Notes under the pieces: generated by a model
Databases searched by the model: none
Told to the model about the DNA's origin: nothing
Seen by the model: the letters and a program-made list of their open reading frames with translations, nothing else
Program-made: the position numbers and the translations under genes
Shown: in pieces, positions 5,778-27,127 of the stretch
How the letters are laid out: each line of letters starts with the position of its first letter
How positions within the stretch are numbered: position 1 is the first letter of the stretch
DNA from: Anaerolinea thermophila
GTDB lineage: Bacteria; Chloroflexota; Anaerolineae; Anaerolineales; Villigracilaceae
Assembly: GCA_020722345.1 (NCBI GenBank)
Contig: DYKZ01000005.1
Span: 1 to 41,856 of the forward strand
Reading direction: 5' to 3'
DNA: 41,856 nt

Positions 5778-5807
5778 TTGCAGAATGTTCTTCTTATGTA
5801 CTATAAT
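5778..5807 (+). promoter_or_regulatory. Candidate promoter of the GAF-kinase / OmpR operon
   Basis: A perfect -10 hexamer TATAAT (5802-5807) is preceded at 18 bases by TTGCAG (5778-5783), a partial -35 box. The ribosome binding site AAGGAG (5814-5819) and the ATG at 5826 follow directly, so the 5' leader would be only about a dozen bases. A distal start further upstream cannot be excluded. Confidence 0.45.
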
Positions 5808-5825
5808 GCCTCCAAGGAGCTCCAG

Positions 5826-8435
5826 ATGCCAAAGAGCACGTTGGAAGTTCAACTGAGCGAAACCTGTCAGTTGACGGGCGCAGAATGGGCCGTCTGGCTG
5901 GAGCGTGACAAGGAGTGGGGGGTGCGCGCCTCCTATCGCTTGGAAGGCCGCCGGCGGACTGCGCTTCTGGCCTATTTGGAACTTGCCCCGGTAAGCGGCT
6001 GGATCAACGGTTCGTTGGCCGGCAACCGGAGCCGTTCCCGTAAACTTTCCCCTCAAACGGGACTTGCAACTGAAAAACTATTCATTTTCCCCGACCAGGT
6101 GACGCAGCGGGTGATCTTAGTGGGTGCCTCGGCTTTGACAACCGCCGCGCAGCGGTTTTGGCGTGTGGTGGCGTTGGGCGGCTATCCCCAGCCCCTGCTG
6201 GACCTCGCGCCTGCCTCCGGTCCGATGGGCGCCGGGCTGGGGGCGGGTTTTCACCTGCCCGATGCACTCGACCGGATGCTGGACAGTCTCCTGCAGGCTG
6301 TCGGCAGCCCCGCCGGTTGGATGGCAATCCGCTCCGGCGATTATCTGGAGGTCAAAGCCTGTGCTGGCTGCGCCAACTACCGGCCAGGCCGTATCTCAAT
6401 TGAGACCAATTCCCTGCTGCGCGAGATCGTGCAGGAAAAGCGCGGGCGGGTGGTTGCAAAAGGGGAGCCGGCGTGGGCGCTGGTGCCGCGCGACCCCGGC
6501 CGCGCAGAGGCGCATTACTGGCTCGGCCAGCCGCTCGTCATTGGGCAGCGCATGATCGGCCTGCTGGGACTATGGTTCACGAAGGCCTTATCCAGGCAGG
6601 ATTTGGAGAGAATCAAAAAACTGGTTGCCCAGATGGCCCCCTCCGTGGAAGCCAGCGTCATCTTCTCCGATCTGTCCAGCCACCTGCGGAGGATGGCGCT
6701 GCTCAACGATTTCTTCGTCACCATTTCATCGGCGGTCAATGTCGAGAGCATCGTCCACAGGACTTTTGCGCTTTTGCAGCGCGCCTTTGAGACCGAGCGT
6801 GTTATCCTGCTCGTCATCGCGCCAGACAGCGCCGATGTGCACCAGTATTACCTGGATGATAATTCGGCCATCGTTCATCAGAACGCTTCTATGGACAATC
6901 CGTTCTTCCTGTTGCTGTCGAAAGGGGAAACCTTCCGCAGTGATTTACTTGATGCAAATGTGGCCTACAGGCCTTTTTATCCGGGGTCGCACTCGGCCAT
7001 TATCGTCCCCCTGAAATATCAACAGCGATTGATTGGCGCAGTTGGGCTGGAGAGCGCTAGGGAGAGCAATTTTACGGTCTATGACGAGCACTTGATGGCA
7101 GTCATTGCCGGCCACCTTGCCAGTTTGCTGGAGAACAGCCGCCTGCGTCAGGAGGCAGAAGCGCGGGCGCGCAATTTGGGTTTGATTCATGAGGTTGTCG
7201 AGCGGACGATTGGTCTGACCGACGTGGAGCAGGTCGCCCAAATTGCCGCCGAACTGACTGCCAAGAACTTTGCCTATGAACTGGCCGGCATCGCCTTGGT
7301 TGACCCAGACGGCAGTTTCAAACTTGCCGGTATCGGGGGCGCTGCGGCCGCAGTTGTCAAAGAGTCCCTGCGCAGCCAGGCGAGGGGGATTCGGCAAGGG
7401 ATCGTTGGGCGCGTCGTAGCCACTGGGCAAAGCATGTTGGTCAACAATGTGAAAGAGGATCCATTCTATTTACCCTTGCCTAACTGGGAGGCCTGCTCCG
7501 AGATGTGCGTTGCGCTCAAGGATGGCGAGGTCGTCCTTGGGGCAATAGATGTCGAAAGCCAAAAGACCAATGCATTCACCCAGAATGATCTGCTCCTCCT
7601 GGAAGCGCTGGCCGGCATTCTTGGCGGAGTGATTGCCAGCGCCGGACAGTACCAGAATTTGCGGGCTACGGTCAACCAGTTGCAGGCTGCCCGCATGGAA
7701 TTGCAGGAACGCATTGCTGCGCAGAAGATGGCCGAGAGCCGCCTTGTCCAGGCTGCCAAACTTGCCGCTGTGGGGGAGATGGCCGCAGGCATTGCCCACG
7801 AATTGAATAACCCCCTGACGACGGTAGCCGGGTTTACCGAACTGGCGTTGGAAGAAATCCCCGCAGACCAACCCCTTCACGCCGACCTCGAACTGGTCCT
7901 GCGCGAAACGAAACGCGCCCGCAGCGTGGTGCGCCGCCTGCTGGACTTCGCGCGCCAAAGCGAAAGCATCCGCACGCGCAGCGACTTGAATGAGATTGTG
8001 GCAGACGCCCTCGCCCTCACCCACCATCTCTTGCGCACTGGCGGCGTTGTCGTCCAGACGAATTTTGCCAAGAATCTCCCCTGGGTTTCCGTGGACCGCA
8101 ACCAGATCAAGCAGGTCATTCTGAACCTGGTCCATAATGCCCTTCATGCCATGCCGGCCGGCGGCACTCTACACATTTCAACTGCCTGCCAGAGTCGCGA
8201 CAAGCGCAACTGGGTGACCATCGTTATCCGTGATACCGGCGTGGGGATTGCACCCGAAAACATTGACCGCTTGTTCGAGCCTTTCTTTACGACGCGCTCG
8301 AAAGATGGAGGCACCGGCTTGGGGCTGTCGGTTTCATATGGAATTCTCGTTGACCATGGCGGCGATATTGATGTCAAGAGCAAAGTGGGGGAAGGTTCCA
8401 CCTTTACGATCTGGCTGCCAATCGAGGTGGAGTGA
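5826..8435 (+). CDS. Soluble multi-GAF sensor histidine kinase
   Basis: An 869-residue cytoplasmic histidine kinase. The start is the ATG at 5826, six bases after AAGGAG (5814-5819); the frame is open further up but without a ribosome binding site. Four GAF-like units precede the kinase: a divergent one at about 1-125, then about 145-275, 295-440 and 450-610. A coiled coil (615-645) leads to HisKA with H658 in GIAHELNNPLT. The HATPase follows, with NLVHNALHAM, DTGVG and GGTGLGL. This NtrB-like HELNNPL type of H box differs from the HELRTPL type of the giant kinase. The stop overlaps the next start (TGATG), so the two kinases are made together. Confidence 0.9.
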   Translation: MPKSTLEVQLSETCQLTGAEWAVWLERDKEWGVRASYRLEGRRRTALLAYLELAPVSGWINGSLAGNRSRSRKLSPQTGLATEKLFIFPDQVTQRVILVGASALTTAAQRFWRVVALGGYPQPLLDLAPASGPMGAGLGAGFHLPDALDRMLDSLLQAVGSPAGWMAIRSGDYLEVKACAGCANYRPGRISIETNSLLREIVQEKRGRVVAKGEPAWALVPRDPGRAEAHYWLGQPLVIGQRMIGLLGLWFTKALSRQDLERIKKLVAQMAPSVEASVIFSDLSSHLRRMALLNDFFVTISSAVNVESIVHRTFALLQRAFETERVILLVIAPDSADVHQYYLDDNSAIVHQNASMDNPFFLLLSKGETFRSDLLDANVAYRPFYPGSHSAIIVPLKYQQRLIGAVGLESARESNFTVYDEHLMAVIAGHLASLLENSRLRQEAEARARNLGLIHEVVERTIGLTDVEQVAQIAAELTAKNFAYELAGIALVDPDGSFKLAGIGGAAAAVVKESLRSQARGIRQGIVGRVVATGQSMLVNNVKEDPFYLPLPNWEACSEMCVALKDGEVVLGAIDVESQKTNAFTQNDLLLLEALAGILGGVIASAGQYQNLRATVNQLQAARMELQERIAAQKMAESRLVQAAKLAAVGEMAAGIAHELNNPLTTVAGFTELALEEIPADQPLHADLELVLRETKRARSVVRRLLDFARQSESIRTRSDLNEIVADALALTHHLLRTGGVVVQTNFAKNLPWVSVDRNQIKQVILNLVHNALHAMPAGGTLHISTACQSRDKRNWVTIVIRDTGVGIAPENIDRLFEPFFTTRSKDGGTGLGLSVSYGILVDHGGDIDVKSKVGEGSTFTIWLPIEVE

Positions 8436-10030
8436 TGGCAACAACGCGTCTCCTGGTAGTGGATGATGAACCCGGCATCGTCAGCCTGTGCAAGCGGCTG
8501 CTTGAACGCTCCGGCTATGAAGTCATTGCCTATACTGACCCTGCCGCTGCACTCGACTTCCTGAAACAGGAAAGGGTGGACCTGTTGCTGGTGGACATCC
8601 GCATGCCTGTAATCAGCGGCTTTGACCTGATTGCCAGGGTGCGACAGAAGCAGCCTGATATAGCCATCCTCATCATGACCGGTTTTGGCACGGTGGAGAT
8701 GGCCATCCAAGCCTTGCGGCAGGGCGTGGATGGTTTGCTCCTCAAACCATTCGAAGCCGGGAATGAACTCACCCAGGCCGTTCAGCAGGCGCTGGCCGAC
8801 AGCCAGCAGAAACGCGACATTGCCCGCATTCAGGCGCTGCGCCCGCTGTTTGATATCACCGAAACCCTGCTGGCCGAGACCCGTCCCGACCGGTTGCTGG
8901 ATCTTGTGATGAATGCGGTGCGCGGGCATCTGCGATGCAGCCATTCTGCATATTACCGATACTCCCCTGAAACCGGCGCCCTCGAACTGGCGGCCAGCCA
9001 CGGCATTGCCCCTCCACCCGGAAAAAGCGGCCTGTCTGCAGACCTCGTTGGGAGGACGGATGCGTTGTCTGCCCCTCTCTGGGTCAGCGCGGAAGGCCCG
9101 GGCGAAGCGGACCTGCAATCTGCTCTCGTTAAATGGGGCTTGTCTTCCGCCATGACAGTTCCCATCGTCCGGCAGAAAGTGCGCGGCATCCTCTTTGCCG
9201 GACGCGAGCCTGGCGCGCCTATCTTCAGGGAAGTGGACCTGGAAATGTTTATTCTTCTGTCGCGGCAAGCGGCAGTGGCAATGGAAAACGCCCTCCTTTA
9301 CGAAGAACTGCGCGATTATGTCCGCAGGGTAGAAGAATCACAGCAGGCCCTCGTCCGCGCCGAGAAACTTGCCACTGCCGGCAGGCTGACGGCTTCCATT
9401 GCCCATGAGATCAACAACCCCCTTCAGTCGGTGCAGAATTGCCTTCACCTGGCCATGCGCAAGGAGGTCACTGCTAGGAAGCGCAGCGAATTTTTACAAC
9501 TTGCCAAAACGGAACTTGAACGCCTTATGAGCACGGTGCAGCGCATGTTGGACTTCTATCGCCCCGGCGCGGTGGACCAACAACGCGTAACCGTGCACAG
9601 CCTCATCAAACACGTAATAAACCTGATGTCGTCCCAACTGGAAGAACGGAACATCCGTGTCACAACCGGCTTTTCGTCGAAGTTGCCTCCCATCATTGCT
9701 GTCAAAAGCCAGTTAGAGCAGGTTTTCATCAACATCATCCTGAACGCCTATGATGCCATGCCGCAAGGCGGAGAACTCCACATCAGCGCCCGCCCCGTGC
9801 GCGACATGGTGGAGATCATCTTTCAAGACACAGGCCCCGGCGTTCCGGCAGAAGACCGGACGCGCATCTTCGAGCCGTTCGTCAGCACGAAGGCAAACGG
9901 CACCGGGTTGGGGCTCTCGGTCAGTTATGGGATTATTTCGGCTCATGGGGGCAGCCTTGACCTGGCTCCTGGTCGCGGAAAAGGAGCCTGTTTTCGTGTC
10001 CTGTTACCGGTGAAAGGGCAAAGACAATGA
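8435..10030 (+). CDS. Response regulator-GAF-histidine kinase hybrid
   Basis: A 531-residue protein with an N-terminal REC domain (1-122; acidic pocket D10/D11, phospho-acceptor D54, K104), a GAF domain (about 140-290), a short coiled coil, HisKA with H324 in SIAHEINNPLQ, and an HATPase (NIILNAYDAM, DTGPG, GTGLGL). With REC at the front, it can receive a phosphoryl group from the preceding kinase and respond by changing its own kinase activity, which suggests a two-step relay. The ATG at 8435 overlaps the previous stop by one base; a GTG at 8432 is an alternative that adds one residue. The end overlaps the OmpR regulator by four bases (ATGA). Confidence 0.9.
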   Translation: MATTRLLVVDDEPGIVSLCKRLLERSGYEVIAYTDPAAALDFLKQERVDLLLVDIRMPVISGFDLIARVRQKQPDIAILIMTGFGTVEMAIQALRQGVDGLLLKPFEAGNELTQAVQQALADSQQKRDIARIQALRPLFDITETLLAETRPDRLLDLVMNAVRGHLRCSHSAYYRYSPETGALELAASHGIAPPPGKSGLSADLVGRTDALSAPLWVSAEGPGEADLQSALVKWGLSSAMTVPIVRQKVRGILFAGREPGAPIFREVDLEMFILLSRQAAVAMENALLYEELRDYVRRVEESQQALVRAEKLATAGRLTASIAHEINNPLQSVQNCLHLAMRKEVTARKRSEFLQLAKTELERLMSTVQRMLDFYRPGAVDQQRVTVHSLIKHVINLMSSQLEERNIRVTTGFSSKLPPIIAVKSQLEQVFINIILNAYDAMPQGGELHISARPVRDMVEIIFQDTGPGVPAEDRTRIFEPFVSTKANGTGLGLSVSYGIISAHGGSLDLAPGRGKGACFRVLLPVKGQRQ

Positions 10031-10761
10031 CAACCAAAGCGAGCATTCTTGTTGTGGACGATGAGCCTGTCGAACGCCAGACACTGACAGAAATCCTGCG
10101 CCTCGAGGGGTACTATGTGGCTTCGGCGGCGAACGGCGAGGCGGCTGTGGACTACGCTCGCCTGCATAACATTGACCTGATGATCCTCGACTTGCGCATG
10201 CCGGGCATGAGCGGTCTGGATGTCGTCAAGGTTGTCAGCCGTATCTCTCCCGATATGGAGGTCATCCTGCTCACTGCGCATGGTTCCATGGAGACGGCCA
10301 TTGATGCACTGCGCCAGCGGGTTCACGATTACCTGCTCAAACCGGCTTCCCCTACCCAAATCCTTGAAACTGTGGAAAAAGGGCTGGCGCGCCGCCGGGC
10401 CAAGTTACAGACTCGCGAAAAGTCGTCCTCGAGCGCCGACAGTGAGCGGGCGGCGGTTATCTTAACTGACGGCATTGTAATTGATTTCGGTCGCCGCCAG
10501 ATCGAAAACGGCCTGCATACGATTTTTCTGACTCCCGCTGAGGGCAGGCTCTTGCAGATATTTGTCGAAAACCCCGGGAAGGTTTTCTCGCATCGGGAAT
10601 TGGTGCTGCTCGTGCAGGGATATTCGACCACGCAACAGGAGGCCCCGGAAATCCTCCGCCCGCTGGTCAGTCGCTTGCGCCAAAAACTGGGCGAGATTCC
10701 CTCCTTGGCGCAGCGGATTGTCAGTGTGCGCGGGACAGGCTACGTTTTCGAAGCCGCCTGA
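10027..10761 (+). CDS. OmpR-type DNA-binding response regulator
   Basis: A 244-residue two-domain regulator. The REC domain (6-120) has the acidic pair D11/D12, phospho-acceptor D55 in LDLRMPG, T83 and K104. A charged linker (about 120-145) leads to a winged helix-turn-helix of the Trans_reg_C type (about 148-240), with the usual LTPAEGRLLQ, REL, and VRGTGYVFE elements. It is the only DNA-binding output in the window and the likely end of the phosphorelay made with the two kinases before it. The TTCACATCAG repeats at 5526-5706, upstream of its operon, are candidate targets. The gene ends three bases from the convergent transporter gene, leaving no room for a separate terminator. Confidence 0.93.
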   Translation: MTTKASILVVDDEPVERQTLTEILRLEGYYVASAANGEAAVDYARLHNIDLMILDLRMPGMSGLDVVKVVSRISPDMEVILLTAHGSMETAIDALRQRVHDYLLKPASPTQILETVEKGLARRRAKLQTREKSSSSADSERAAVILTDGIVIDFGRRQIENGLHTIFLTPAEGRLLQIFVENPGKVFSHRELVLLVQGYSTTQQEAPEILRPLVSRLRQKLGEIPSLAQRIVSVRGTGYVFEAA

Positions 10762-10764: not shown

Positions 10765-11724
10765 CTATTGATCGCCCCCCCACGATATTTTTGTAGGATC
10801 ATCCGGCGGTTTCAGCCACCGCAGCAGGTTGCTGTTAGGGCGGCGTAATTCGGGCCGTATTTTTTCGAGGGCAATCAGGCCAATGCTTGTACCGAGGAGG
10901 ATAGCGCCGACCCATTGGAGCGGTTGCAGGGTTTCATGAAGCCATACATGGCTGACGATGATCGAAACCATTAACTCACTGATGCTCAGCAGCGCGGTCT
11001 GGATGCCGCCGAGGCGTTTGACGCCCAGAAACAATGTCAACCTCGACAGCACAGTAACAAGAGTCAGAAGGAACAGAGGATTCCAAGATGCGCCCAGACC
11101 CGGCGGTTTTTGCCCAGAGAACAGTGCAATTGGCAGGCTTACGGCGCTCATGGCGAGCAGGGTGTACATTGTGACGGTGGGCGCCGGAATATCGTACAAC
11201 ACACGTTGATTGATGGGGAGGTGGATGGCGTACAACACCGAGGCTGCCAGCATCCAGGCTACCCCTTTCCAGTCCACCTGCGCAGATTGGATGGCTGTTA
11301 GCAACACAACGCCCACCGTAGATAGGAAGAGGCGGAAATAGGTCAATCGGCTGGGCGCTTGGCGCTCGAATAGTAACCAGATAACCAGGAAGACCGGGTA
11401 GAGGGAGTAAAGCAATTGGCCGACGCTGACATCCAGTCTTTGCAGGGCCAGGTAATAGAATATTGACCCAAGACCGTTGATTGCCCCGGCCAGGCCGCAT
11501 CCCAACAACCCGGCGGGGTAAATATACAAATACGGGCGGCGAAATATGGCCACGAACAACAACAGAAAAAACGCCGCCAGGCTTGTTCGCAGCGCGACAA
11601 CCATGAGCGGAGGAAAGCCCAAGTTGATGGCTTGTTTGCCGAATATGGGGGTCAAGCCGAGGAACAGGGCAGAGGCGAGAGCAGCCCAAATACCTTCTTT
11701 GTGACTCTGCCTGCGGATTGCCAA
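10765..11724 (-). CDS. EamA/DMT family transporter (10 membrane helices)
   Basis: A 319-residue membrane protein with about ten hydrophobic helices arranged as two EamA repeats (about 12-140 and 150-290). This fold exports or imports small metabolites; members such as RhtA and RarD move amino acids or related compounds, but the substrate here cannot be read from sequence. The start is a TTG at 11724 with AGGG a few bases upstream, 17 bases after the threonine-synthase fusion gene. It is the last gene of the 14-gene operon. The cytoplasmic tail after residue 292 is polar. Its place after an amino-acid enzyme suggests transport of that product or precursor, which is inference only. Confidence 0.88.
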   Translation of the reverse strand: MAIRRQSHKEGIWAALASALFLGLTPIFGKQAINLGFPPLMVVALRTSLAAFFLLLFVAIFRRPYLYIYPAGLLGCGLAGAINGLGSIFYYLALQRLDVSVGQLLYSLYPVFLVIWLLFERQAPSRLTYFRLFLSTVGVVLLTAIQSAQVDWKGVAWMLAASVLYAIHLPINQRVLYDIPAPTVTMYTLLAMSAVSLPIALFSGQKPPGLGASWNPLFLLTLVTVLSRLTLFLGVKRLGGIQTALLSISELMVSIIVSHVWLHETLQPLQWVGAILLGTSIGLIALEKIRPELRRPNSNLLRWLKPPDDPTKISWGGDQ

Positions 11725-11741: not shown

Positions 11742-13421
11742 TCAGCCCAGCAGGGCGCGGACTTCTTCTAGGAACTCATCGCTCAAGAAGTCGCCTTTTT
11801 GCATCAATGCTTGGATTTGACCTTTCAATTTGTTCTTTTCGTCGGCAGTGAGTTCTTTTGCGGTGGAGACAATCACCGGGATGCTGGCGGTTTGAGGTTC
11901 GGTCTTGAGCGCGTCTAGCACGGCAAAGCCATCCATCTCAGGCATCATCAGGTCTAAGATGATCAGATCGGTATTCTCTTTCTTGACGAGTTCGAGGGCT
12001 TGCTTGCCGTTCTCGGCCTCGAAGATGGTGAAGTTGCCCTGCGATTGCAGAATTCGCCGGATCAGCCGGCGCGCTTCTTCGCTGTCATCTACGATTGCCA
12101 CGCGCGGGAAGCGGGCCGGGGCAACCCGATTGAGGGCTGCAAGTAAGCCTTCTTGGGGAGAGTCTTCCAGGGAGCGCGACGGCAGGACGACACTGCTTGC
12201 CCAGTTCTCACCCAACAGGAACGGTTCGGTAGGCATGGTATGGCCGGTGCAGTTGACAACCACCACGTCGGTGGATTTGATGATCCCCGCCCGGACCAGT
12301 TTGAATAGGCCGGCAAACGCCACCGCGGCGGCCGGTTCGGCAGAGATGCCTTCCATTTTCGCCAGCACGTGCATGGCGCGGAATGCTTCTTCATCATTGA
12401 CGCTGTCGAACGTGCCGTGATTTTCTTTGGTGAGTTTGTAGAGCAGTGTATAGGTCCGGCCCGGATCGCCGGTTGCCAGCGTCTCGATGTGGGTGCGGGG
12501 GCTGATGACCGGCGAGGCTGTGTCCTTGTCCTCGTTCCAGGCTTGAGTCATCGGCGCGCATCCTTCAGTTTGGATGAGGGCTGTCGCGGGTTCCCGGTCA
12601 ATCAGGCCCATTCTGCGCAATTCCGAAAAACCTTTTATGATGCCCAACGGCCCCATTCCGCCGCTGATTGACTGGATGTACCAGTCTGGAGCCCTCCACA
12701 GCGGCTGCGACTGATTGGCGGATATCTTGGGGCTCGGACCCCGTAGAGCCGTCAGTTGTTCGGCTATTTCGTATGCAATGGTCTTCATTGCTTCGACCGA
12801 GGTGATTGTGCGCGCGCCCATATCGAGGTAAAGGTTGCGCTGGCGGGCGAACTCGGCAGCCACTTGTTTTGCCTGATCGTATGAACCGGTTACCTTAACC
12901 ACCTGGCTTCCGTAGATTGCTATCTCGCGCATTTTTACAGCCGGCACCAGGCTGGTGACAAAGGCCCACAGTTTGATCCCGGCCCGCGCCGCGTATGCCG
13001 AATAAGAGATGGCTACGTTGCCGGTGGAGGCCACCACCATTTCTGTGATACCGGCCTCTTTCAAGGCTGCAATCGTTACTGCCGCCTGCCGGTCCTTGAA
13101 CGAAGATGTCGGCCCCTGCCTTTCATCCTTGATGTAAATATTCGGGCAGCCCAGCATCATGCCCAGGTTGACTGCCTGGATGAGCGGCGTACCTCCTTCC
13201 CCCAGCGTCAGGGCCTGGTTGAGATTGCGGACGGGCAGAAGTTCGCGATACCGCCAAAGGTCGAAAGGACGGGAGGGGAGTTGCAGCGGTAGATTACTGG
13301 CTACCGTTTCTAAATCGTATTCTGCTTCACGCCACTGGCTGTTACAGCGCGGGCAACTGACAGAAGTGGGGAAGAAGGGCGCTTTGTGGCCGCAATCAAT
13401 ACAGCGAATAGTAAAAGTCAT
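11742..13421 (-). CDS. Threonine-synthase-like PLP enzyme fused to a C-terminal REC domain
   Basis: A 559-residue fusion. Residues 1-40 hold a zinc ribbon (C7, C10, C23, C26). Residues 60-425 are a fold-type II PLP enzyme of the threonine synthase family: GEGGTPL (74-80), PLP lysine K109 in SSFKDR, ASTGNVAIS (131-139) and SGGMGP (253-258). Threonine synthase converts O-phosphohomoserine to threonine. Residues 438-559 are a complete REC domain with D445/D446, phospho-acceptor D490 (ILDLMMP), S519/T520 and K542 (MQKG). Ordinary threonine synthases lack it. ATG 13421 is preferred because it begins the zinc ribbon and follows GAGAGG; a GTG at 13445 overlapping the previous stop (GTGA) is possible. 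Tight coupling to the giant kinase suggests the enzyme is its phosphorylation target. Other PLP substrates are possible. Confidence 0.88.
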   Translation of the reverse strand: MTFTIRCIDCGHKAPFFPTSVSCPRCNSQWREAEYDLETVASNLPLQLPSRPFDLWRYRELLPVRNLNQALTLGEGGTPLIQAVNLGMMLGCPNIYIKDERQGPTSSFKDRQAAVTIAALKEAGITEMVVASTGNVAISYSAYAARAGIKLWAFVTSLVPAVKMREIAIYGSQVVKVTGSYDQAKQVAAEFARQRNLYLDMGARTITSVEAMKTIAYEIAEQLTALRGPSPKISANQSQPLWRAPDWYIQSISGGMGPLGIIKGFSELRRMGLIDREPATALIQTEGCAPMTQAWNEDKDTASPVISPRTHIETLATGDPGRTYTLLYKLTKENHGTFDSVNDEEAFRAMHVLAKMEGISAEPAAAVAFAGLFKLVRAGIIKSTDVVVVNCTGHTMPTEPFLLGENWASSVVLPSRSLEDSPQEGLLAALNRVAPARFPRVAIVDDSEEARRLIRRILQSQGNFTIFEAENGKQALELVKKENTDLIILDLMMPEMDGFAVLDALKTEPQTASIPVIVSTAKELTADEKNKLKGQIQALMQKGDFLSDEFLEEVRALLG

Positions 13422-13441: not shown

Positions 13442-16400
13442 TCACTGTCGTATACGTTTAAGGGCGCGCTCAAGCCTGGAAAGCAATTCCTGCTCGTTCA
13501 GCGCCCCTTTCTGTAAGAGCCCCTGGCCGAAATTGTCCAATTGTTGCTGCTGTTCCGGCGTCAGGTCCGCGCCGGAGACGACAATAACGGGAATATCTGC
13601 CAATTCCGGGCTGGAGCGCAATTTTTCCAGGATCTTGAACCCATCCAGGTCGGGCATGAACAAATCCAGGATTACGGCATCGGGCTTTTGTCTCTCTATC
13701 TCGGCCCACCCGGACTTGCCGCCTTCGCATAGGATGGGCTGGAATTGCCCGCTTTCGCTGAGCAGTTTTTGGATCAATCGCAAGTCCTTGGTCTCATCGT
13801 CAATTACCAGAACATTGCGGATATCGTTTTCGCTGTTCAGCCGGTTGAGCGCCCTTATGAGATCGTCTTCGAGGATGGGTTTTACCAGATAATCGGCGGC
13901 GCCCAGACTGAACCCTTTTTCTTCCTCTTCGAGGATGCTGCATATGATGACCGGGATGTCACGTGTTTCGACATGACTCTTCAACTCGGTGAGAACGCTC
14001 CAGCCGTCTCTGCCGGGCATCATGATGTCCAATGTGATTGCGAAGGGTTTGAGTTCGCGGGCGCGCTCCAGCGCCTTCGTTGGGTCGGTTAAAGCGATGA
14101 CTTGGTACCCCTGCGGCTGGAGATATCTTTCGTAGAGACTGATGACCTGGGTGTCATCATCTATAGCCAGGACGACCTTAACGTTTGGCGACTCAATCTC
14201 TTGGGCTTTGATTTCTTTGGCTACCTTTGGAAGTGGAAGCGTAAAGTAGAAAGTGCTGCCTTTATCAGTTTCGCTGTTGACTCCGATACGCCCTCCGTGG
14301 AGTTCGATTAGCCTGCGCGAGATTGACAGTCCCAGCCCTGTGCCGCCCGTCTTGCGTGTGGGAGAGGCATCCACCTGAGAGAACGGCTGGAACAACTTCG
14401 ACAGGTCCTGGGGCGCAATGCCAGGACCGGTATCGGCTACTTTGACCACAATTTCCGGCTGGCTGTTTTCGTTGACCTCCACACCTGCCTCGATGGTAAT
14501 TGTGCCTTGCTCGGTGAACTTGGCGGCGTTCGAGAGCAGGTTCAGCATCACCTGCCGGATTCTTGTGGCGTCTGCGCGCACAATGGGAATATTTGGCGCA
14601 ATGTTCTGAACAAGAGTGATGGGTTTGTCTTTGATCAGGCCTTTGGCTGTCGGCACAATGCTCTCGATGAGTTCGCCCAGGTTGATATCGTCGAAGGTGA
14701 GTTCCATCTTGCCGGCATCAATCTTGGAAAGGTCGAGAATATCGTTGATGAGATGTAGCAGGTGTTGGCCGGAATTGTAAATTGCATTGAGGTCCTGTTC
14801 CTGCAATTCACTGATTGGCCCATCTATGCCTTTCAGGATAACGCGCGAGAAGCCAATAATCGAGTTGAGCGGTGTGCGCAATTCGTGACTCATGTTCGCC
14901 AGGAATTGGCTCTTCAGGCGGTCGAGTTCGCGCATTTCGTTGATGGCCTGCTGAGCGAGTTCGTACGAGCGCGCGTTGTCAATGGCCACCGCCACCTGGT
15001 CGGCAAGGGTCTGCAGGACGTTGACAGCGTCCGGGCTGAAGGCATTCGGTTCGGTGGATTGGATGTCGAGAGCGCCGATAATGCGTTTGCCAATTCGCAG
15101 TGGAATGGCGGTTTCCGAACGGCTATCTGGCAACAGCGGGTTGGGGCGGTGGATCGGGTCGGTGGTGGTGTCGTTTACGACCATCGGGTTACCGGTGGCG
15201 GTGACCGTTCCAACAATCGAGCGGGATCCGACCTGTAAGGTGTGGCCCCGTTTCAGCATTTCTTCACCTGCATCGCCTGTCGCGGCTTTTACGGAAGCGT
15301 TGAAGCCCGTTTCGTCAACGATGAAGATCGAGGCGTGGTAGAACCCAAACCGGTCGCGGACCAGGTTCACGGTCCGGCTGAAGAGCGTGTTGAGATCGAG
15401 GGTGGAGGTAATGAGCCTGCCAATTTCTGCCGAAGTTGCTAGGTATTCGTTTTGTTTCTTTAGCGTCTCTTCGAAGATGCGGCGTTCGGTAACATCGCGC
15501 GCGACCCAGAATACCTGTTCCTCGCTCAGTTTGGAGACGCTTGCGTTGAACCAGTAAAGCCTGCTGTTGATTTCGAGCGGATATTCAATCGTGTTGGTCT
15601 GCCCCGTCTCCAGTGTGTCATGAATGACTTTCATGAACGGTTCGTGTAGTTCCGCCGGCAGGACTTCGGTGACCTTCTTCCCCAGCATATCTTCGGGAGG
15701 CAGGAACAGGCGCGAAGGGTTGGTGGGAGCAATGCGGATGTATCGCCCTTCTTTGTCGTAAACCAGGATAACGTCTGTGAGGGACGAAAACAGGGCGCGC
15801 AGTTCGAGTTCGGACTGTTTGCGTTCGATGGCTACCGAGATCTGATCTGCCATTGTGGCAAGGGCGTCGCGGTCGCGTTCGGTCAGGCGGATCTCTGGCG
15901 AATAGGTTTGGATTGCCAGAACGCCAAGGGTGCGCTCTCTGCTGCGCAGCGGGATACCAATCCAGTCCACCGCTGGCGTCCCGCTGGAATGAATCTCGCC
16001 GGCGGCGACCAATTGCTGGAACACCTCCGGTGTTACCAGCAGAGGGGTACCCAATCTGAGTACGTAACTGGTCAGGCCTCGACCGATTTTTTGGGGAGGC
16101 ATGGGTTTATCGAATTGGTCAACGTAGTAAGGGAATGTGAGCAGATCAACGCGCTCGTCATACAGCGCCACATACATGTTTTCTGCTGGGATTAACATTT
16201 TTATTGCCGCGTGGATGGAACTCAGCAGGCTGTACATATCTGGAGCAGCAAGAGCCGAGGCGGTAATCGTCTGCAACACTTGCTGCATCTTCTCTGACCT
16301 GCGCCGTTCGGTGATGTCTTTGTCAACCCCTCGATATCCGACCCGCTTGCCGTTCTGGTCAAGAATTGGAACGGCGCTGGTCAGTATATACCCCTTCTGG

Positions 16401-19400
16401 CCGTTCTTGAAGATTACTTCGTTCTCGATATCTACGGCTCTTCCGTCCCTGTCAATTGCTTCAATCAACAATTGGCTGAGCCGATCGGCTTCCTCGGGAT
16501 CGTAGAGGTCGTAATCTGTTCTTCCCAGTAATTCCTCCGGAGTGTAGCCGAGAATGGCCTGGACCCGGCCCGAAACATAGGTATATTTCCACTCCAGGTC
16601 GGTTTCCCAGATGTAATCGCCGAGGATTGTCGAGATGTCGCGGAAGCGGTTCTCGGAGGAGCGGATTTGCTCGAAAAGGCGGGCGTTCTGGATGGCGATG
16701 GAAACCTGGGTTAGAACGGTCTCGATGAGACGGATCTGGTCGGCGATTAGAGAGCCAACGGGATTTGTAATGTCAAAGTTGACAGTGCCGACAACCTCAT
16801 CGTTCAAGATGACCGGGAAGATGGCAATTGTATAGATTCCCGCTTGCCGAAACATCTCTTGCATTTGCGGCGGAATCGAAGGAGCATTTTGGGCATTGTT
16901 TACAACGTAGGGCTTCTTGTTCTCAATGACGTAGGCGCTGTTGGAGTTTTTATAAACAGGGATTTTTTGCCCATAGATGGATGGCGATTGAATTTTCTTG
17001 TATTCTGCAACAACACTCAGTTCCTTTTGCTTTGCATTCAGCAGAGTTCCCGTGGCTCGCCCGATGTCGGGAATGGAATCGGCAATTTCGCTGATGGTTG
17101 TTTGCAAGGCTTCGGCGATATTGAGAGAGAGCGCAACTGTGGAGACCACCCGGTTGATCAGTGCGAGTTCGTTGCTGCGCTGTTCGACATCCTGGAACAG
17201 GCGCGCGTTTTGCAAGGCGATGGCGGCCTGGGCGGCAAATGCAGAGACCAGCCTGCCCAATTCCTCGTTGTAGGCGTCCGGCTTATCGCTATCCAACGTC
17301 AGGATGCCCAATACTTCTTCGCCAGCCAAGAGAGGACAACCGATCCAGGAGCGCACGTGCTGGGTATCGGTGGTGACCGTCCAGTTCGGGTCTTGGTAGG
17401 TATCGGGGATAACGATGGGCTGCCGCGAGGCAACAATCTTGCTGATTAGCGGGTCTTCAGCCACGGGGCGCCAGAGCAGCGCCGCGCCTTCCGTTGTCGT
17501 TGCGTTCAGGTCAATTCCCCTTCCGCCGATTACAGACCGTTTTCCCTGTTTGATGGATTGGATGCAGGCAGACCTGTACGTGATCAGTTTGGCGACCTGG
17601 TCCAGGAGGATGTTGGCAATCTGGGTGATATCGAGCGTCGCGCTGACCAATTTCGCCATTTCACTCAACGCGTCTGCGATCTCGCGGCGATGCTGTTCCG
17701 CTTCGAAGAGGCGGGCGTTTTGGATGGCGATCGAAGCCTGGTTGCCAATGGCCGACAGAAGGTACTGATCATGCTCATCGTATGCGTACGGTGTGGTGTA
17801 ATTTTGGACAGCCAGCGCGCCCAGGATCTGGTCGCCGAGCAGGATCGGTACCCCCAGCCAGGATTTGGCAGGTTCGCCCACAGATTCGATGCCGTGTTCG
17901 TTCAGCCAGCCGAGGACATCCTCTTTGATAAGCACGCTGGCGCGGTTCTGGATGATGTAACCGGTGATGCCCTTGCCGGCGGGCAGACGGGTGATTTGCC
18001 CGTCAATCTGCGACTCGGTGACATTCAGGAGGAAAACATTCTCGTTCTTTTCTGCATCGTGGATTGCAATGTAAAAGTTGGTTGTATCCAGCAGGCGCGA
18101 GACGCCTCGGTAAACTTCATCCAAAACCTGGTCAAGGCTCAAACGTGAGGCTAGCGCCCGGCCGAGGTCGTTCAGGGCGGCCATTTCTTCAGCGCGCAAC
18201 TGAACTTGCGAGAATAGATAGGCATTCTCGATTGCCGCGCCGATTTGACGCCCGATTGTTTGCAAGATGGGAAGTGTGTTCTTTCCCCACGCTCCCGCCT
18301 GGTGTCTGAATCCGCACAGGGTGCCGAGCGTCTGCCCGCGCGCTTCGAGCGGGACGCCGAGATAGGAAAGGAAGCCAGCCTCGATTTCACCGCTCACATC
18401 CACTGGCGCTCCCCGACGTAAGTCTTCGATCACCATGGCCGATTTTGACTCGAACACCGCGGCGCACAGGGAATTTTCGAGCCCTTCTGCCGGGTCGGGG
18501 GGGGGTTCACCTGGCAGACCGGTGCGGACGATGCGCTCCAGTTCGCCCCGCTTCTGGTTGAACATTGTGATCAGTCCGCCGTCAAAACCTGCAACGGGAA
18601 TCACTTTTTCCAGAACGTTCTTCAGGAGTTCTTTGAGGTCCAGTGAGGCAGAGGCCGAACCGATGATCTCGTTGAGGGTCCCTAATTCCTGGTTGCGTTT
18701 GGAGGCTTCTTGGAAGAGGCGCGCGTTCTCAATGGCTACGCTTGCCTGGCTGGCGATGGAAGTCAGCAGGTTGCGGGCGTGGAAGTCGAAAGCGTGCTCG
18801 TCAGTGTAACTTTCGATTGCAATGACGCCTATCGAACGATTGCCAAGCATCATCGGCACGCCCAGCCAGCATTTGGATACGCTGCCAACCGCATCAATGC
18901 CCATGGCCTGGATTTTCTCGGCTGTGCTCTCCTCGATTAAGAGCGGCTCGCCGCGGCGCAGCAGAAACTCTGTCAGCCCATTCCCGAATTCCTTGGGAGG
19001 AATGTTGAGCCGCTTGCCTTGCTCGTAGAAAATGGGGAACGAGATTGTGTTTTCCTCTTCATCGTATAGGGCAATATAGAAACTGCTCGTATCCAGCAGT
19101 CGTGAGGCGTATTGATAAGTGCTGGTGATGATTTCGCCAATATCCAGGGAACTGGACAGCGCCCTGGCCATCTCGTTCAAAATCTCGACTTCGAAACCGT
19201 GTTTCTGGGTCTCTTCGAAGAGTTGAGCGTTTTGGATCGTGGCAGCCGCCTGGTTAGCAATCGAGGTGAGCAGGCCCAGGTGGGACTGGTTGTAAAGGCG
19301 GGCCTGAGCCGTGCTTTGCACGACGATCGCGCCCAGGACTTTATCGCCCAGAAGCAGCGGCGTTCCGAGCCAGGATAAGGGTTCCAGCCCCTTGTCAAAC

Positions 19401-20152
19401 AAGCGGTAATCGAACCCCATTTTCTTGAATGTTTCGATAACATTCTCCGGTATTAAGAGCGGAGATTTGGACTTTATGATGTAATCTGTTGGGCTGTTTG
19501 CCAGCGGGCGGTCCTCAATCAATATTGGCCTACCGCTGGAGTAAGCAACAGGGAATGACATCAGTTGTTTTTCTTCCGAATACAGGCAGAGGAAGAAAAC
19601 CTCTACCTCCATCAACTGCAATACATACTTGTAAACCGTTTCTCCCACGCCGGTCAGATTTAACTGTGTGGAGAGTTCGCGACCCATCTCATTGAGGATC
19701 TGCAACTCACTTGCCTGGCGCTGGGTTTGCTGGAACAGGCGGGCATTCTCCAGCGCCAATGAAAGTTGGTCGGTTACTTGCTTGACCAGTGTCTGTTCTT
19801 CCCGGCTCCACAATCGGTCCATATCGGGTGACTTGGCCTCCAGGGCAACCCAGTTATCCGGGCTTCTCTGGAAGGGAACCAGTAGCGTGGCAGAGGATTC
19901 CATTTCGGCAGTCTGCGTAAGCGCCTGCGGGGTCGGACCGGTGGCCTGGTCGCCTTTTCGGGAGGGGGCGCGTCGGCTGGACACTTTTCCGGCAGACGGC
20001 GCGGCAGGCTTCAGGTCCGGAGCGCTGGCGGGGAGTTGAGCCTTCTTGGGGGTGGTCTTCTGCTTCCCAGCAGGCTGTGGTGTCTTGTCCTCTGTTTGCG
20101 CCAGGTCGGAAAAAAGCTGATCAATCTTTTTCTGAATTCGTTTGTTGGACAT
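13442..20152 (-). CDS. Giant soluble hybrid histidine kinase (8 GAF, 2 PAS, HisKA, HATPase, 2 REC)
   Basis: A 2236-residue cytoplasmic kinase. Residues 1-80 are basic and Pro/Ala-rich, probably disordered. Residues 85-145 look like the C-terminal half of a GAF domain. Full GAF domains follow at about 165-315, 332-483, 500-648, 668-818, 836-988 and 1008-1160. Then come PAS 1165-1285, GAF 1300-1448, PAS 1450-1558 and an FGFYH-type GAF 1582-1732. HisKA has H1756 (MSHELRTPL); HATPase has NLLSNAAKF, DTGPG and GGTGLGL. Two REC domains end the protein: D2042 with K2091, and D2163 with K2215. GAF units are joined by ENARLF-type helical linkers. The ATG at 20152 lies within the end of the ParA gene, ten bases after GAGGAG. 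It is the only kinase of its operon, so it probably serves all eight membrane receptors. Confidence 0.93.
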   Translation of the reverse strand: MSNKRIQKKIDQLFSDLAQTEDKTPQPAGKQKTTPKKAQLPASAPDLKPAAPSAGKVSSRRAPSRKGDQATGPTPQALTQTAEMESSATLLVPFQRSPDNWVALEAKSPDMDRLWSREEQTLVKQVTDQLSLALENARLFQQTQRQASELQILNEMGRELSTQLNLTGVGETVYKYVLQLMEVEVFFLCLYSEEKQLMSFPVAYSSGRPILIEDRPLANSPTDYIIKSKSPLLIPENVIETFKKMGFDYRLFDKGLEPLSWLGTPLLLGDKVLGAIVVQSTAQARLYNQSHLGLLTSIANQAAATIQNAQLFEETQKHGFEVEILNEMARALSSSLDIGEIITSTYQYASRLLDTSSFYIALYDEEENTISFPIFYEQGKRLNIPPKEFGNGLTEFLLRRGEPLLIEESTAEKIQAMGIDAVGSVSKCWLGVPMMLGNRSIGVIAIESYTDEHAFDFHARNLLTSIASQASVAIENARLFQEASKRNQELGTLNEIIGSASASLDLKELLKNVLEKVIPVAGFDGGLITMFNQKRGELERIVRTGLPGEPPPDPAEGLENSLCAAVFESKSAMVIEDLRRGAPVDVSGEIEAGFLSYLGVPLEARGQTLGTLCGFRHQAGAWGKNTLPILQTIGRQIGAAIENAYLFSQVQLRAEEMAALNDLGRALASRLSLDQVLDEVYRGVSRLLDTTNFYIAIHDAEKNENVFLLNVTESQIDGQITRLPAGKGITGYIIQNRASVLIKEDVLGWLNEHGIESVGEPAKSWLGVPILLGDQILGALAVQNYTTPYAYDEHDQYLLSAIGNQASIAIQNARLFEAEQHRREIADALSEMAKLVSATLDITQIANILLDQVAKLITYRSACIQSIKQGKRSVIGGRGIDLNATTTEGAALLWRPVAEDPLISKIVASRQPIVIPDTYQDPNWTVTTDTQHVRSWIGCPLLAGEEVLGILTLDSDKPDAYNEELGRLVSAFAAQAAIALQNARLFQDVEQRSNELALINRVVSTVALSLNIAEALQTTISEIADSIPDIGRATGTLLNAKQKELSVVAEYKKIQSPSIYGQKIPVYKNSNSAYVIENKKPYVVNNAQNAPSIPPQMQEMFRQAGIYTIAIFPVILNDEVVGTVNFDITNPVGSLIADQIRLIETVLTQVSIAIQNARLFEQIRSSENRFRDISTILGDYIWETDLEWKYTYVSGRVQAILGYTPEELLGRTDYDLYDPEEADRLSQLLIEAIDRDGRAVDIENEVIFKNGQKGYILTSAVPILDQNGKRVGYRGVDKDITERRRSEKMQQVLQTITASALAAPDMYSLLSSIHAAIKMLIPAENMYVALYDERVDLLTFPYYVDQFDKPMPPQKIGRGLTSYVLRLGTPLLVTPEVFQQLVAAGEIHSSGTPAVDWIGIPLRSRERTLGVLAIQTYSPEIRLTERDRDALATMADQISVAIERKQSELELRALFSSLTDVILVYDKEGRYIRIAPTNPSRLFLPPEDMLGKKVTEVLPAELHEPFMKVIHDTLETGQTNTIEYPLEINSRLYWFNASVSKLSEEQVFWVARDVTERRIFEETLKKQNEYLATSAEIGRLITSTLDLNTLFSRTVNLVRDRFGFYHASIFIVDETGFNASVKAATGDAGEEMLKRGHTLQVGSRSIVGTVTATGNPMVVNDTTTDPIHRPNPLLPDSRSETAIPLRIGKRIIGALDIQSTEPNAFSPDAVNVLQTLADQVAVAIDNARSYELAQQAINEMRELDRLKSQFLANMSHELRTPLNSIIGFSRVILKGIDGPISELQEQDLNAIYNSGQHLLHLINDILDLSKIDAGKMELTFDDINLGELIESIVPTAKGLIKDKPITLVQNIAPNIPIVRADATRIRQVMLNLLSNAAKFTEQGTITIEAGVEVNENSQPEIVVKVADTGPGIAPQDLSKLFQPFSQVDASPTRKTGGTGLGLSISRRLIELHGGRIGVNSETDKGSTFYFTLPLPKVAKEIKAQEIESPNVKVVLAIDDDTQVISLYERYLQPQGYQVIALTDPTKALERARELKPFAITLDIMMPGRDGWSVLTELKSHVETRDIPVIICSILEEEEKGFSLGAADYLVKPILEDDLIRALNRLNSENDIRNVLVIDDETKDLRLIQKLLSESGQFQPILCEGGKSGWAEIERQKPDAVILDLFMPDLDGFKILEKLRSSPELADIPVIVVSGADLTPEQQQQLDNFGQGLLQKGALNEQELLSRLERALKRIRQ

Positions 20153-20906
20153 ATTGGATCAACTCCTCGGCCAGGGTGCGGTATTGCTGGGCGCCGCGGC
20201 TGTTGGGTTTATACTGAGTAATAGGGACTCCTAGGATGGGGCTTTCCCGCAGTTTGGTGTCTATCTCGATAACTGTTTTGAACAGGCCTTCACCGAACGT
20301 TCTCTCCAACTGGTCGCGAATATCGCGGTGGGTGCGGTTGCGTTGATCCAGCAGCGTGACCAGGATGCGGTAGGCGAGGTTGGGGTTGTTTTCGGCGCGC
20401 ACCTGGCGGATGACCGTCATCATGTCGCGCAGGGCGTAAGCGGAGAAATACTCCGCCTGGGTGGGGATGATGAGGAGTTGCGCGGCTGTAAGCGCGTTGA
20501 TGGTGATGGCTCCCAGCGATGGAGGGCAGTCTATCAGGACGATATCGTAGTTAAATTTGCTCGTTGCTTCAATGGCATTTTGCAGGCGGATGGCATAATT
20601 CAGGTAAACCGGCAGAATTTGCTCCGCCTGTTCCAGGCTCATGTTGGCTGGCACAAGGTCTATGCCTGGAAAGTTCGTTTGCAGGCAGATCTCTTCCAGC
20701 GGGGCAGAATTGAGCAGGATGTCGGAGGAGGCGCGCTCGATTTTGCCCGGCTCGAATCCCAATGCGAGGGTCAAGTTGGCCTGCGGGTCGAGGTCAATGA
20801 GGAGCACTTTCTGGCCGATCTCTGCCAGGGCGGCGCCAAGTGAGAGTGCGGTGGTCGTTTTGGCCACGCCACCTTTTTCGTTCGAGATTGCAATAAGATA
20901 ACTCAT
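20121..20906 (-). CDS. ParA/Soj/MinD-type ATPase without ParB partner
   Basis: A 261-residue ParA-family ATPase. The deviant Walker A box is KGGVAKTT (K11 signature lysine, K16), Walker A' is LIDLDPQ (D38, D40), and Walker B is LIDCPPSLG (D126). Such ATPases form ATP-dependent dimers on DNA or membranes and position plasmids, chromosomes, or large complexes such as cytoplasmic chemoreceptor clusters. There is no ParB, no parS-like repeat set and no replication gene nearby. The gene sits between the last receptor gene and the giant kinase, overlapping the kinase start by 32 bases. The ATG at 20906 follows GGAG by eight bases; a TTG at 20927 would add seven residues. A role in placing the receptor-kinase array is inferred from context. 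Confidence 0.9.
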   Translation of the reverse strand: MSYLIAISNEKGGVAKTTTALSLGAALAEIGQKVLLIDLDPQANLTLALGFEPGKIERASSDILLNSAPLEEICLQTNFPGIDLVPANMSLEQAEQILPVYLNYAIRLQNAIEATSKFNYDIVLIDCPPSLGAITINALTAAQLLIIPTQAEYFSAYALRDMMTVIRQVRAENNPNLAYRILVTLLDQRNRTHRDIRDQLERTFGEGLFKTVIEIDTKLRESPILGVPITQYKPNSRGAQQYRTLAEELIQYVQQTNSEKD

Positions 20907-20930
20907 GCCTCTTTCTCCATGCAGCAACTG

Positions 20931-22667
20931 CTACTGTGCGCCTTTTTGGGGCTTTTTATCTGTTCGATGCTTCTCCTGAGATGTCTTGGCCGGCGAGTAG
21001 GGGCGGAGGGTAATTTCTTTCGCACCGAGCACGCGTTTCAACTCATCTAAGGCTGTTTGGATCATCGCTTCCGGGTCTGTGTGGGAGCGGATGTTGGTGG
21101 TGATTTGAGACACGGTGCGCTCCCGCTCGGCGCGCTGGGATGTTTCTTCGAAGAGACGGGCATTTTCTGCCGAGAGCGCAATCCGCTCGGCGACCGCATT
21201 GACAATGTCAATCTGGTCCTGGCTGAGTTTGCTTTTCCCCGCCGGTCGGACAATGAGCGTGCCAATCGTCTCGCCGCGCAGATTCAGGGGAATTTTTAGT
21301 ATGGCTTGCGAGTCTCTGCCTTTCTTGGCCTGTTTCGATTTCTGTTGGGACAGCGGCAGGACGCCAAGGCCTGTGTAGCGATAGCCCGCCAGTTTCTGTT
21401 CTTCCACCAGCCGGCCCCACCCTTCGCGCAGGTTTTGGCGATACAGTGTCTCGGCTTCGGCCAGAGAGCGGTTGGTCTGCTCAAAGAGGCGGGCGTTTTC
21501 GATGGCGAGGCTGAGTTGGTTTGCCAGGATGGTGAGAGAACGAACGTCTTCCTGATCAAAGGCGTTGACTTCGGTGCTTTGCACGTCAAGCGCGCCGATG
21601 ATTTGTTCCCCAATCACCAGCGGCAGCGCTATTTCTGAACTCGTTTCGGGCAGGTCGGGGTTGTTGAAGAATACGGCATCTTCCCCCACGTTGAGCGCCA
21701 CGCGAGGAAAACCGGTTTTTGTCACGTAACCGACAATGCCCTGTCCGCCGATCAAAAGTTTGTGCTGGCGCGCAAGCATTTTTTGACCGCCAGGACTATT
21801 CGCGGCCATCAGCACAGTATGTTTGTTTTCGGCGTCGTTTAGGAAGATTCCCACATGATAAAAGCCGAATTGTTCGCTGATTACTTTAGTGACGTAGGGC
21901 AGTAATTGATCCAGTGAGCGCAGTGACATGACGGAACTGATGGTCTGGGCAATTGTCTCGAACTGGGCGGCGCGCCGGGCGTTGTTTTGGTTGGCGGCCT
22001 CCAATTCAAAGGCGCGCCGGGTGAGTTCCTCTGTGGCCGCTTTAATGCGGTCGGCGAGGTTGGCCTGTTCCTGCTGCAATTCCTGCAGGGCGCTGCCGGC
22101 CTGCTGCTGGGTCTGAACAAACTCTTTCTGAATGAGCGCCATTGCCCTCACAATCATGATCGAGAGCAGGAATGTGTACAGGACGGCTTGCAGCCAGATG
22201 TCAAACCCGCCGATTGGGCTGTTCCTCGTCCAAGGGGCGATTTGTCCGCTCAGGAACAGCCAGCCGACGAGAGCGTAGGTCCCCAGGGTAATGCCGGTGG
22301 CGGCCCATCCCGCCCGCGGCGACAGGATCATGGCAGAAAGGGCGATCCAGCCGAGGAGCAAGGCCGCCGACCCGCCGGTCAGCGCAGTGTCGAGCAGGGC
22401 GGTCAAGCCTGCGAGATAGATGAGCAGCAGGAAGATCCAGGCGCGAACCGCATAAGGAAGTTTTATGAATGTCAGCAGCAGGTAAAATACAAATAGTATC
22501 CCGATTGAAATGTTGTAGATAATGCTTTTAGATGTGACAATGTAGATCAAAACAACAACCAGCCCAATGCCGGCAGTGATGTAGAGGATCGTTTGGAGAA
22601 ACCGTTCGCGCCAGCGTTGGTACTCGAACTGGATGCTGCTCGTTGGCTCAAGGTTGGGTTGGCTCAT
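20931..22667 (-). CDS. Six-helix membrane GAF receptor (operon receptor 8)
   Basis: A 578-residue protein. About six membrane helices lie in residues 24-177 with hardly any outside loops, so it may sense the membrane or an internal signal. A long coiled coil (178-235) connects to an FGFYH-type GAF domain (245-395; GFYH at 268-271, SSE at 343-345). A linker with GYRYT (428-432) and a shorter, partial second GAF (455-505) follow. The tail (515-557) has the shape of the first helix and strand of another GAF domain, then a charged end rich in Lys and Gln. There is no kinase, cyclase or methyl-accepting domain. The gene follows AAGGT and ends 24 bases before the ParA gene. Confidence 0.85.
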   Translation of the reverse strand: MSQPNLEPTSSIQFEYQRWRERFLQTILYITAGIGLVVVLIYIVTSKSIIYNISIGILFVFYLLLTFIKLPYAVRAWIFLLLIYLAGLTALLDTALTGGSAALLLGWIALSAMILSPRAGWAATGITLGTYALVGWLFLSGQIAPWTRNSPIGGFDIWLQAVLYTFLLSIMIVRAMALIQKEFVQTQQQAGSALQELQQEQANLADRIKAATEELTRRAFELEAANQNNARRAAQFETIAQTISSVMSLRSLDQLLPYVTKVISEQFGFYHVGIFLNDAENKHTVLMAANSPGGQKMLARQHKLLIGGQGIVGYVTKTGFPRVALNVGEDAVFFNNPDLPETSSEIALPLVIGEQIIGALDVQSTEVNAFDQEDVRSLTILANQLSLAIENARLFEQTNRSLAEAETLYRQNLREGWGRLVEEQKLAGYRYTGLGVLPLSQQKSKQAKKGRDSQAILKIPLNLRGETIGTLIVRPAGKSKLSQDQIDIVNAVAERIALSAENARLFEETSQRAERERTVSQITTNIRSHTDPEAMIQTALDELKRVLGAKEITLRPYSPAKTSQEKHRTDKKPQKGAQ

Positions 22668-22685
22668 CTAGTTACCTTCCTGGGG

Positions 22686-24593
22686 CTATTTCTTGGTTTC
22701 CAGTTGGATTTCGACCTGCGAACCCGGCAGGGCGTGGCCAAGTTCTTCGACTGCCGTCTGCAAGACATTGCGGATATTGACCGAGGCGCTGATCTTTGCG
22801 GATATTTCACTAATGGCGCGTTCTTTCTGGGCGCTTAATTGCGTGCTCTTGATGAGGCGCGCGTTCTCCAGCGCCAGGGCGGCGCGATCAACGATCCTTT
22901 GCAGCACGTCAATATCTTCGTCTTTCCAAAGCCTTTCTTCTGGAAGACGAATGTTTAGGACAGCAATCGTCTCCCCACGAATTATCAAAGGTATTGCCAG
23001 GGAGGCGTTTTTGCCGGTTTTTGCCACAATAGTGCCGGTTTGCAGAGCCTGCTTGATTTCAGGGTAGGCGACAAATTCCGAAAGTTTTTCCATTCCCTGC
23101 GAGGTGTAGCGAATAGCGCGCAATTGCTGAGTTTCCAGGATACCACTCCAGCCTTTTTGCAGGAATTGTCTGTAAATGTGTTCAGCCTCTTCGAGGGCAC
23201 GGCGTGTTTCGTTGAGCAGCCGGGCGTTTTCGATTGCTATGGCTACCTGGTCGGCCAGGGTGTTGAAGATCGAAAAATCGTCTTCCTGGAAGGCGTTGGT
23301 TTCCTTGCTTTGTATGTCCAGCACACCAATCACGCGCTCCTGGACGAGCAGAGGCAGGGCCATCTCTGAGCGTGTCTCGGGTAGGTTGGGATTGTCGAAG
23401 TATACGGCGTCAATGCCCACATCGAGGGCAATGCGTGGTTTGGCGCGCTCGGCCACGTACCCTACGATCCCTTCTTTGCCAACCTTGAGGCGGTGGCCCC
23501 GCTCCAACATGCGGGCGCCTCCCTCGCTGTTTGTGGCTTTCAGGACAGCGTACTCATTGTTCTCGTCCAGCAGGAAAATGCCAACGTGATAAAAGCCAAA
23601 CCGTTCGCTGATCAGGCTGGCGATTGAGACAAGGAGGCGGTTGAGATCCTGGATCAACAAGATGGAATGCGTCACCTCGTAGATGGTCTGGAGTTGGGCA
23701 ACGCGGCGCTGGACCTGTTCGGCTGTCGCGCTCAGTTCCCGGGTCCGGGCCTCGACCCGCTGCTCGAGTTCCTGGATCAGGGCAAACTGCCGGTCAGCCA
23801 TCGAGAAAAAGGACGCGTTCAATGTTCTAATTTCCGGGACAGCAGATTTGATCACGGGGCGATAATTCAGTTCTCCGGCGGCGATTCGCGAGGCGGCCAA
23901 CGTCAAGGCACGAATGGGCCCCGCCAGGTTGTTGCCCATTAGCCAGCCGAGGAAGATGATCATTGGCAGGGTTGCCAGGAATATCCCTAAGGTGATGAAG
24001 AGCAATTGCCTTTCTCCTGCCAGGATTTTGTTGGCCGAGATATCCACGCCGATTATTCCGGTAACCTGTCCGGCGCTGTCCCGGATAGGAGCATATGCGG
24101 AAAGGAAACTGCCGTATTCATCGGAATAAATATCTTCCTCGCCGATCGGCTGCAACAGGTTGCGGTAGTTTTCCGAGAGGACAGGGCCCGGCTCGAAATA
24201 GCGGGTCCCGTAAGGGGAAAAACCGGCGCTGTTTGGGTCGCCTGCATCAACCACGAAGTAAATTCCCTCCTCGTCGAACCGCATGGTGTAAACGAAAATC
24301 AGGTCGGGGTCGGATAACAGGATTTTCGTGTTCTGGTCATGTATTTGCCAATATTCAGGGTCATCGGGCGATTGGATGGCGGCAAAAGCATCCCCGTCAA
24401 TTTGAAGAGATGCAATCGTGGCGATGTTGATTAGCCTCTGGCGAAGCGCATCGCGGAGTTGTTGCTGAAAATTCAGGAAAACAATCGTCAGGGTAATGGC
24501 CGAGGATAGGATGGCGAGCAGGATAAAACTCACCGCAACCCGTCCGCGCAGGCCGATTCCTTTGGATTGTAGGTTGAGAGATGCCGGGTTCAC
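22686..24593 (-). CDS. Membrane GAF receptor with Cache-like outside domain and HAMP (operon receptor 7)
   Basis: A 635-residue protein. Helix 17-40, an extracytoplasmic domain of about 150 residues (41-194), helix 196-218 and a HAMP region (219-270) form a classical receptor front. The outside part contains DLIFVYTMRFDEEG and ends in IGVDIS, as in Cache-type sensors. A coiled coil (270-303) is followed by an FGFYH GAF (308-460; GFYH 333-336, TRSE 407-410), a linker with IRYT, a second partial GAF (485-582) and the common tail (590-630). No output domain is present. The GTG start at 24593 overlaps the previous stop as GTGA, so translation is coupled to the dCache receptor before it. Confidence 0.86.
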   Translation of the reverse strand: MNPASLNLQSKGIGLRGRVAVSFILLAILSSAITLTIVFLNFQQQLRDALRQRLINIATIASLQIDGDAFAAIQSPDDPEYWQIHDQNTKILLSDPDLIFVYTMRFDEEGIYFVVDAGDPNSAGFSPYGTRYFEPGPVLSENYRNLLQPIGEEDIYSDEYGSFLSAYAPIRDSAGQVTGIIGVDISANKILAGERQLLFITLGIFLATLPMIIFLGWLMGNNLAGPIRALTLAASRIAAGELNYRPVIKSAVPEIRTLNASFFSMADRQFALIQELEQRVEARTRELSATAEQVQRRVAQLQTIYEVTHSILLIQDLNRLLVSIASLISERFGFYHVGIFLLDENNEYAVLKATNSEGGARMLERGHRLKVGKEGIVGYVAERAKPRIALDVGIDAVYFDNPNLPETRSEMALPLLVQERVIGVLDIQSKETNAFQEDDFSIFNTLADQVAIAIENARLLNETRRALEEAEHIYRQFLQKGWSGILETQQLRAIRYTSQGMEKLSEFVAYPEIKQALQTGTIVAKTGKNASLAIPLIIRGETIAVLNIRLPEERLWKDEDIDVLQRIVDRAALALENARLIKSTQLSAQKERAISEISAKISASVNIRNVLQTAVEELGHALPGSQVEIQLETKK

Positions 24594-27100: not shown

Positions 27101-27127
27101 AACTGTCTCTGTTTTATACGGCCAGAA

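Follow-up and report, generated by a model that had tools for sequence, protein, structure and literature searches.

A PLP-dependent enzyme fused to a receiver domain and encoded beside a histidine kinase in Chloroflexota: a likely response regulator that is probably not a threonine synthase

Receiver (REC) domains joined to standard metabolic enzymes have been described in bacteria and archaea, and a KaiC-like ATPase, a glycosyltransferase, a thioredoxin reductase, and a pyruvate phosphate dikinase are given as REC-fused outputs in the section on enzymatic output domains of PMC5847659. The protein examined here, denoted PALP-REC, is similar to these response regulators in that REC is carried on a metabolic enzyme whose activity is presumed to be under signal control. 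Its output is, however, a fold-type II PLP enzyme, which is not listed in that section, and it occurs over much of a phylum with a constant kinase neighbor, whereas the cases given there belong to one family or genus. The literature searched, which did not extend to the main bacterial census papers, contained neither a PALP-REC response regulator nor a threonine synthase (ThrC) under a receiver. Response regulators with enzymatic outputs are an established class, to which PALP apparently adds a new output domain, and PALP-REC represents a widespread, conserved case of a two-component system apparently acting directly on a metabolic enzyme. The nearest solved structures of PALP-REC by both sequence and fold are threonine synthases (TIGR00260, NF006050; PDB 2zsj, 2d1f, 1uim, 2c2b; Z 33–39), followed by the cysteate synthase CapA2 (TIGR03844; PDB 9k3c; Z 36), which is of the same fold family but has no REC. 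ThrC and PALP-REC have in common the SFKDR motif of the PLP lysine and a C-terminal TGH segment, and a zinc ribbon is also present in some ThrC. PALP-REC differs from ThrC in its glycine loop (SGGMGPLG versus VGNAGN), an invariant Q112, and the C-terminal REC.

The fusion gene is located at 11742..13421 (coding sequence without the stop codon) on the minus strand of the window, which is the whole 41,856-nt stretch of Anaerolinea thermophila DNA that was analyzed. Its reading frame runs from ATG 13421 to a last codon at 11742 with no internal stop, and is translated into a protein of 559 residues. The zinc-ribbon cysteines C7, C10, C23, and C26 (13344..13403, minus) are followed by the PALP domain of residues 72–392 (12246..13208, minus; PF00291, E = 1.1e-62), which contains the PLP lysine K109 within SSFKDR, and by the REC of residues 441–542 (11796..12101, minus; PF00072, E = 4e-22), which carries D445/D446, D490, S519/T520, and K542. 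The original prediction of a PLP enzyme with a zinc ribbon and an SSFKDR lysine, fused in frame to a complete REC, was thus confirmed by Pfam and by the named residues. ATG 13421 is conserved in relatives, is preceded by GAGAGG, and lies 20 nt past the TGA stop codon of the upstream kinase gene. A start at GTG 13445, with which alone a 4-nt overlap with the kinase gene arises, is unlikely, as it has no ribosome site and its context is not conserved in relatives. The translational coupling to the kinase that had been proposed is consequently only plausible given the 20-nt gap left by the conserved ATG, while a shared operon is well supported. A predicted structure of PALP-REC (mean pLDDT 75) gave no usable contacts between REC and the PLP domain; no such contact is demonstrable in it because the linker region was modeled in low-confidence blocks (pLDDT 34–50).

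Among 61 genomes, which comprise 60 relatives and the window's own genome, a full-length fusion in a single frame was found in 47. PALP-REC fusions form two paralogous clades, A, which includes the window's copy, and B; clade A is present in 46 of these genomes, and one more has clade B only. Twenty-five Chloroflexota loci with the fusion (L041–L065) were further detected in a collection of named genomes, some of which are probably the same organisms as genomes among the 60 relatives. Sampling of 400 Chloroflexota genomes showed full-length fusions to be distributed across Anaerolineae and to occur in two families outside this class, several of them within single-contig genomes (G017, G165, G261, G388). 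The window's genome also has a second copy, which is clade-B-like and of which the end is present where contig C67 breaks off, and several genomes of the same genus, some of them incomplete, showed no match above the fusion level. REC genes are plentiful around the locus, which would lend itself to an assembly artefact or a frameshift fusing two adjacent genes; nevertheless, the identical one-frame fusion recurs in dozens of genomes that were assembled independently, some of them into a single contig, so that the chance of such an error is negligible. Separate genes in relatives would have been the sign of a frameshift or chimera, and this explanation was ruled out because most relatives carry the orthologue at full length in one frame; the fusion is genuine. 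Outside Chloroflexota, the phyla of L074 (149 genomes), L071 (199), and L083 (299) yielded no match at the threshold; these are weak absences because only 4–9 candidates were scored per genome and receiver domains may crowd the candidate list.

Residue conservation was evaluated on an alignment of 80 fusions (60 of clade A and 20 of clade B). C7, C10, C23, C26, K109, D446, D490, and K542 are invariant in all 80, position 445 is occupied by D or E, and positions 392 and 520 are always T or S. The acidic pair, the phospho-acceptor Asp, the Thr/Ser, and the Lys of a REC are accordingly found in 80/80 sequences. On the PLP side, K109, the SGGxGP loop (kept with one exception, A at 255), T/S392 facing the ring nitrogen, the Pfam match, and the fold match assign the output to the fold-type II PLP enzymes. 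Such conservation of catalytic and receiver residues suggests that selection probably acts on both halves, on the first for its enzymatic function and on the second for phosphorylation of the receiver.

The enzyme had originally been described as threonine-synthase-like, with O-phosphohomoserine as the substrate to assay; that it is a threonine synthase acting on this compound is not supported. PALP-REC scored 248 bits against a cut-off of 303 for NF006050 and 152 against 167 for TIGR00260, and passed neither of these ThrC models. It also reached only 105 of the 325 bits demanded by TIGR03844, by which an identity as cysteate synthase is unsupported. In a quick tree of 83 rows, in whose table three fused rows (L211, L214, L215) are unlabelled, PALP-REC and its unfused relatives from the cyanobacterial phylum constitute one supported clade, within which the fused proteins group, and which is distinct from the Thermus-type and NF006050-type ThrC and from the other ThrC-like groups. 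The three aligned solved ThrC and the Thermus-type ThrC rows contain NSxNPxR before EGQKT, corresponding to residues 154–160 of Thermus ThrC (numbering matched to the alignment), which we take to be the site of the substrate phosphate in that enzyme. None of the PALP-REC rows or the unfused relatives has this segment; in its place, the PALP-REC rows carry a DMGARTITS- or DRGASSIPA-type segment. Because the phosphate-recognition segment differs from that of threonine synthase, the substrate of PALP-REC is probably other than O-phosphohomoserine, as far as can be judged from sequence. Furthermore, the window's genome possesses a separate ThrC scoring 579 bits against the cut-off of 303, and a Thermus-type ThrC with the motif is encoded besides PALP-REC in four genomes that are complete or nearly so (G017, G165, G388, G163); threonine supply therefore does not seem to need PALP-REC. 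A genuine threonine synthase on O-phosphohomoserine placed under phosphorylation control would agree with the best PDB matches by sequence and fold, with the intact PLP machinery and zinc ribbon, and with a TIGR00260 score close to the cut-off, which one unfused relative passes; against the replaced motif and the additional ThrC genes, however, we regard it as unlikely. Members of the family would in most cases be annotated as threonine synthase and probably are not, so that such annotations may mislead. Another ThrC-like protein of the window's genome (L010:4983-6281, plus; ASLKDRAS, GYNPFTAEGKKT, loop SVGDGN), whose gene adjoins ABC transporter genes, groups apart from both PALP-REC and the solved ThrC.

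The unfused relatives were obtained from 146 genomes of the cyanobacterial phylum, in which four relatives of the PALP domain, approximately 50% identical and without REC, were present (among them L194:9072-10286, L196:9310-10506, and L197:9197-10459). They are likely annotated as threonine synthase. Their gene neighborhoods differ and give no hint of a substrate.

Directly upstream of the fusion in the window lies the gene of a 2236-residue hybrid histidine kinase (13442..20152, minus), for which Pfam identified GAF repeats, PAS, HisKA, HATPase, and two RECs. Of 78 loci, 74 (48/52 in clade A and 26/26 in clade B) have a GAF-type histidine kinase gene at this position and in the orientation of the fusion, usually within about 50 nt of it; L042, whose upstream gene encodes a double REC detached from such a kinase, was counted as kinase-adjacent. 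These and the following gene-order counts are approximate because they are based on blastp labels from the window's domains and on mechanical ORF calls. The four clade-A copies with no adjacent kinase are L065, L135, L170, and L183, the last of which (G446:C7) is a second clade-A copy in its genome and also has no adjacent EamA gene. On the other side, an EamA (DMT family) transporter is encoded 17 nt downstream of the window's fusion (10765..11724, minus; Pfam), and it is the next gene in 42 of 50 clade-A loci. In clade B the next gene encodes a stand-alone REC (22/26 loci), and the proteins of L062 and L167 have the organization PALP-REC-REC. Most kinases of clade A carry one or two C-terminal RECs, whereas those of clade B have none. 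A ThrC gene lies within two genes downstream in 9 of 26 clade-B loci, which would accord with PALP-REC serving as a regulatory partner of canonical ThrC or another enzyme through mixed oligomers, its own catalysis being secondary. We consider this very unlikely, as all catalytic residues are retained and no ThrC gene was found near the copies of the commoner clade A among the loci examined.

Fusion of PALP with REC and a kinase gene almost always upstream suggest a direct phosphorylation switch of a metabolic enzyme, not one operating via gene expression. Together with the conserved PLP and REC residues, the gene order makes it most likely that PALP-REC is a response regulator with a PLP-enzyme output, which would be phosphorylated by the upstream kinase and thereby switched in activity. 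Direct two-component control of a PLP enzyme, as the original prediction had it, consequently stands as the likeliest reading of the sequences, given the phylum-wide conservation of the fusion, of its kinase neighbor, and of the invariant phospho-acceptor residues, apart from its threonine-synthase component. The GAF-rich kinase would sense a cytoplasmic or relayed cue and phosphorylate D490 of the fused receiver; in clade B, the partner REC would join the relay. The switch of the receiver may then be transmitted via the linker (residues 400–438) to alter the activity of the PLP enzyme without new transcription. The enzyme is predicted to act on an amino acid, by β/γ-type replacement or elimination. 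The phosphate route from kinase to PALP-REC is ambiguous, because two RECs are present on the clade-A kinase and an HPt was not detected. This ambiguity, and the location of the locus among many sensor proteins, would also suit a PLP domain that acts as a sensor, in which a bound amino acid gates the (de)phosphorylation of its own REC to provide a metabolite-controlled phosphate sink. Such a role is distinctly unlikely, however, since the whole catalytic set is invariant, PLP lysine included, and the unfused relatives occur as free-standing enzymes. On the response-regulator reading, the product of clade A or its derivative may be moved by the co-encoded EamA transporter, an export that we guess from gene order. 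It is speculative and on balance improbable that the phosphorylation-gated enzyme has a new activity next to that of ThrC and makes a small amino-acid-like compound exported by EamA, with which the kinase would directly control an extracellular signal or metabolite.

The surroundings of the operon are also rich in signaling genes. A ParA/MinD-like ATPase is encoded upstream of the kinase (20121..20927, minus), is present in 26 of 42 clade-A loci, and might position a signaling cluster. Beyond it, eight consecutive genes at 20931-38802 (minus) encode GAF proteins, several of them with MASE11, HAMP, or dCache, in which Pfam detected neither a kinase nor any other output domain; these proteins could be partner sensors of the kinase. 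On the opposite side, a second, convergent two-component set (5778-10761, plus) consists of a GAF kinase, a REC-GAF kinase, and an OmpR-type response regulator, and is kept beside the clade-A locus; the OmpR-type gene (10027..10761, plus), the convergent neighbor, is frequently conserved. Two tandem stand-alone receiver proteins are encoded at the distal end of the sensor cluster (38828-39663, minus).
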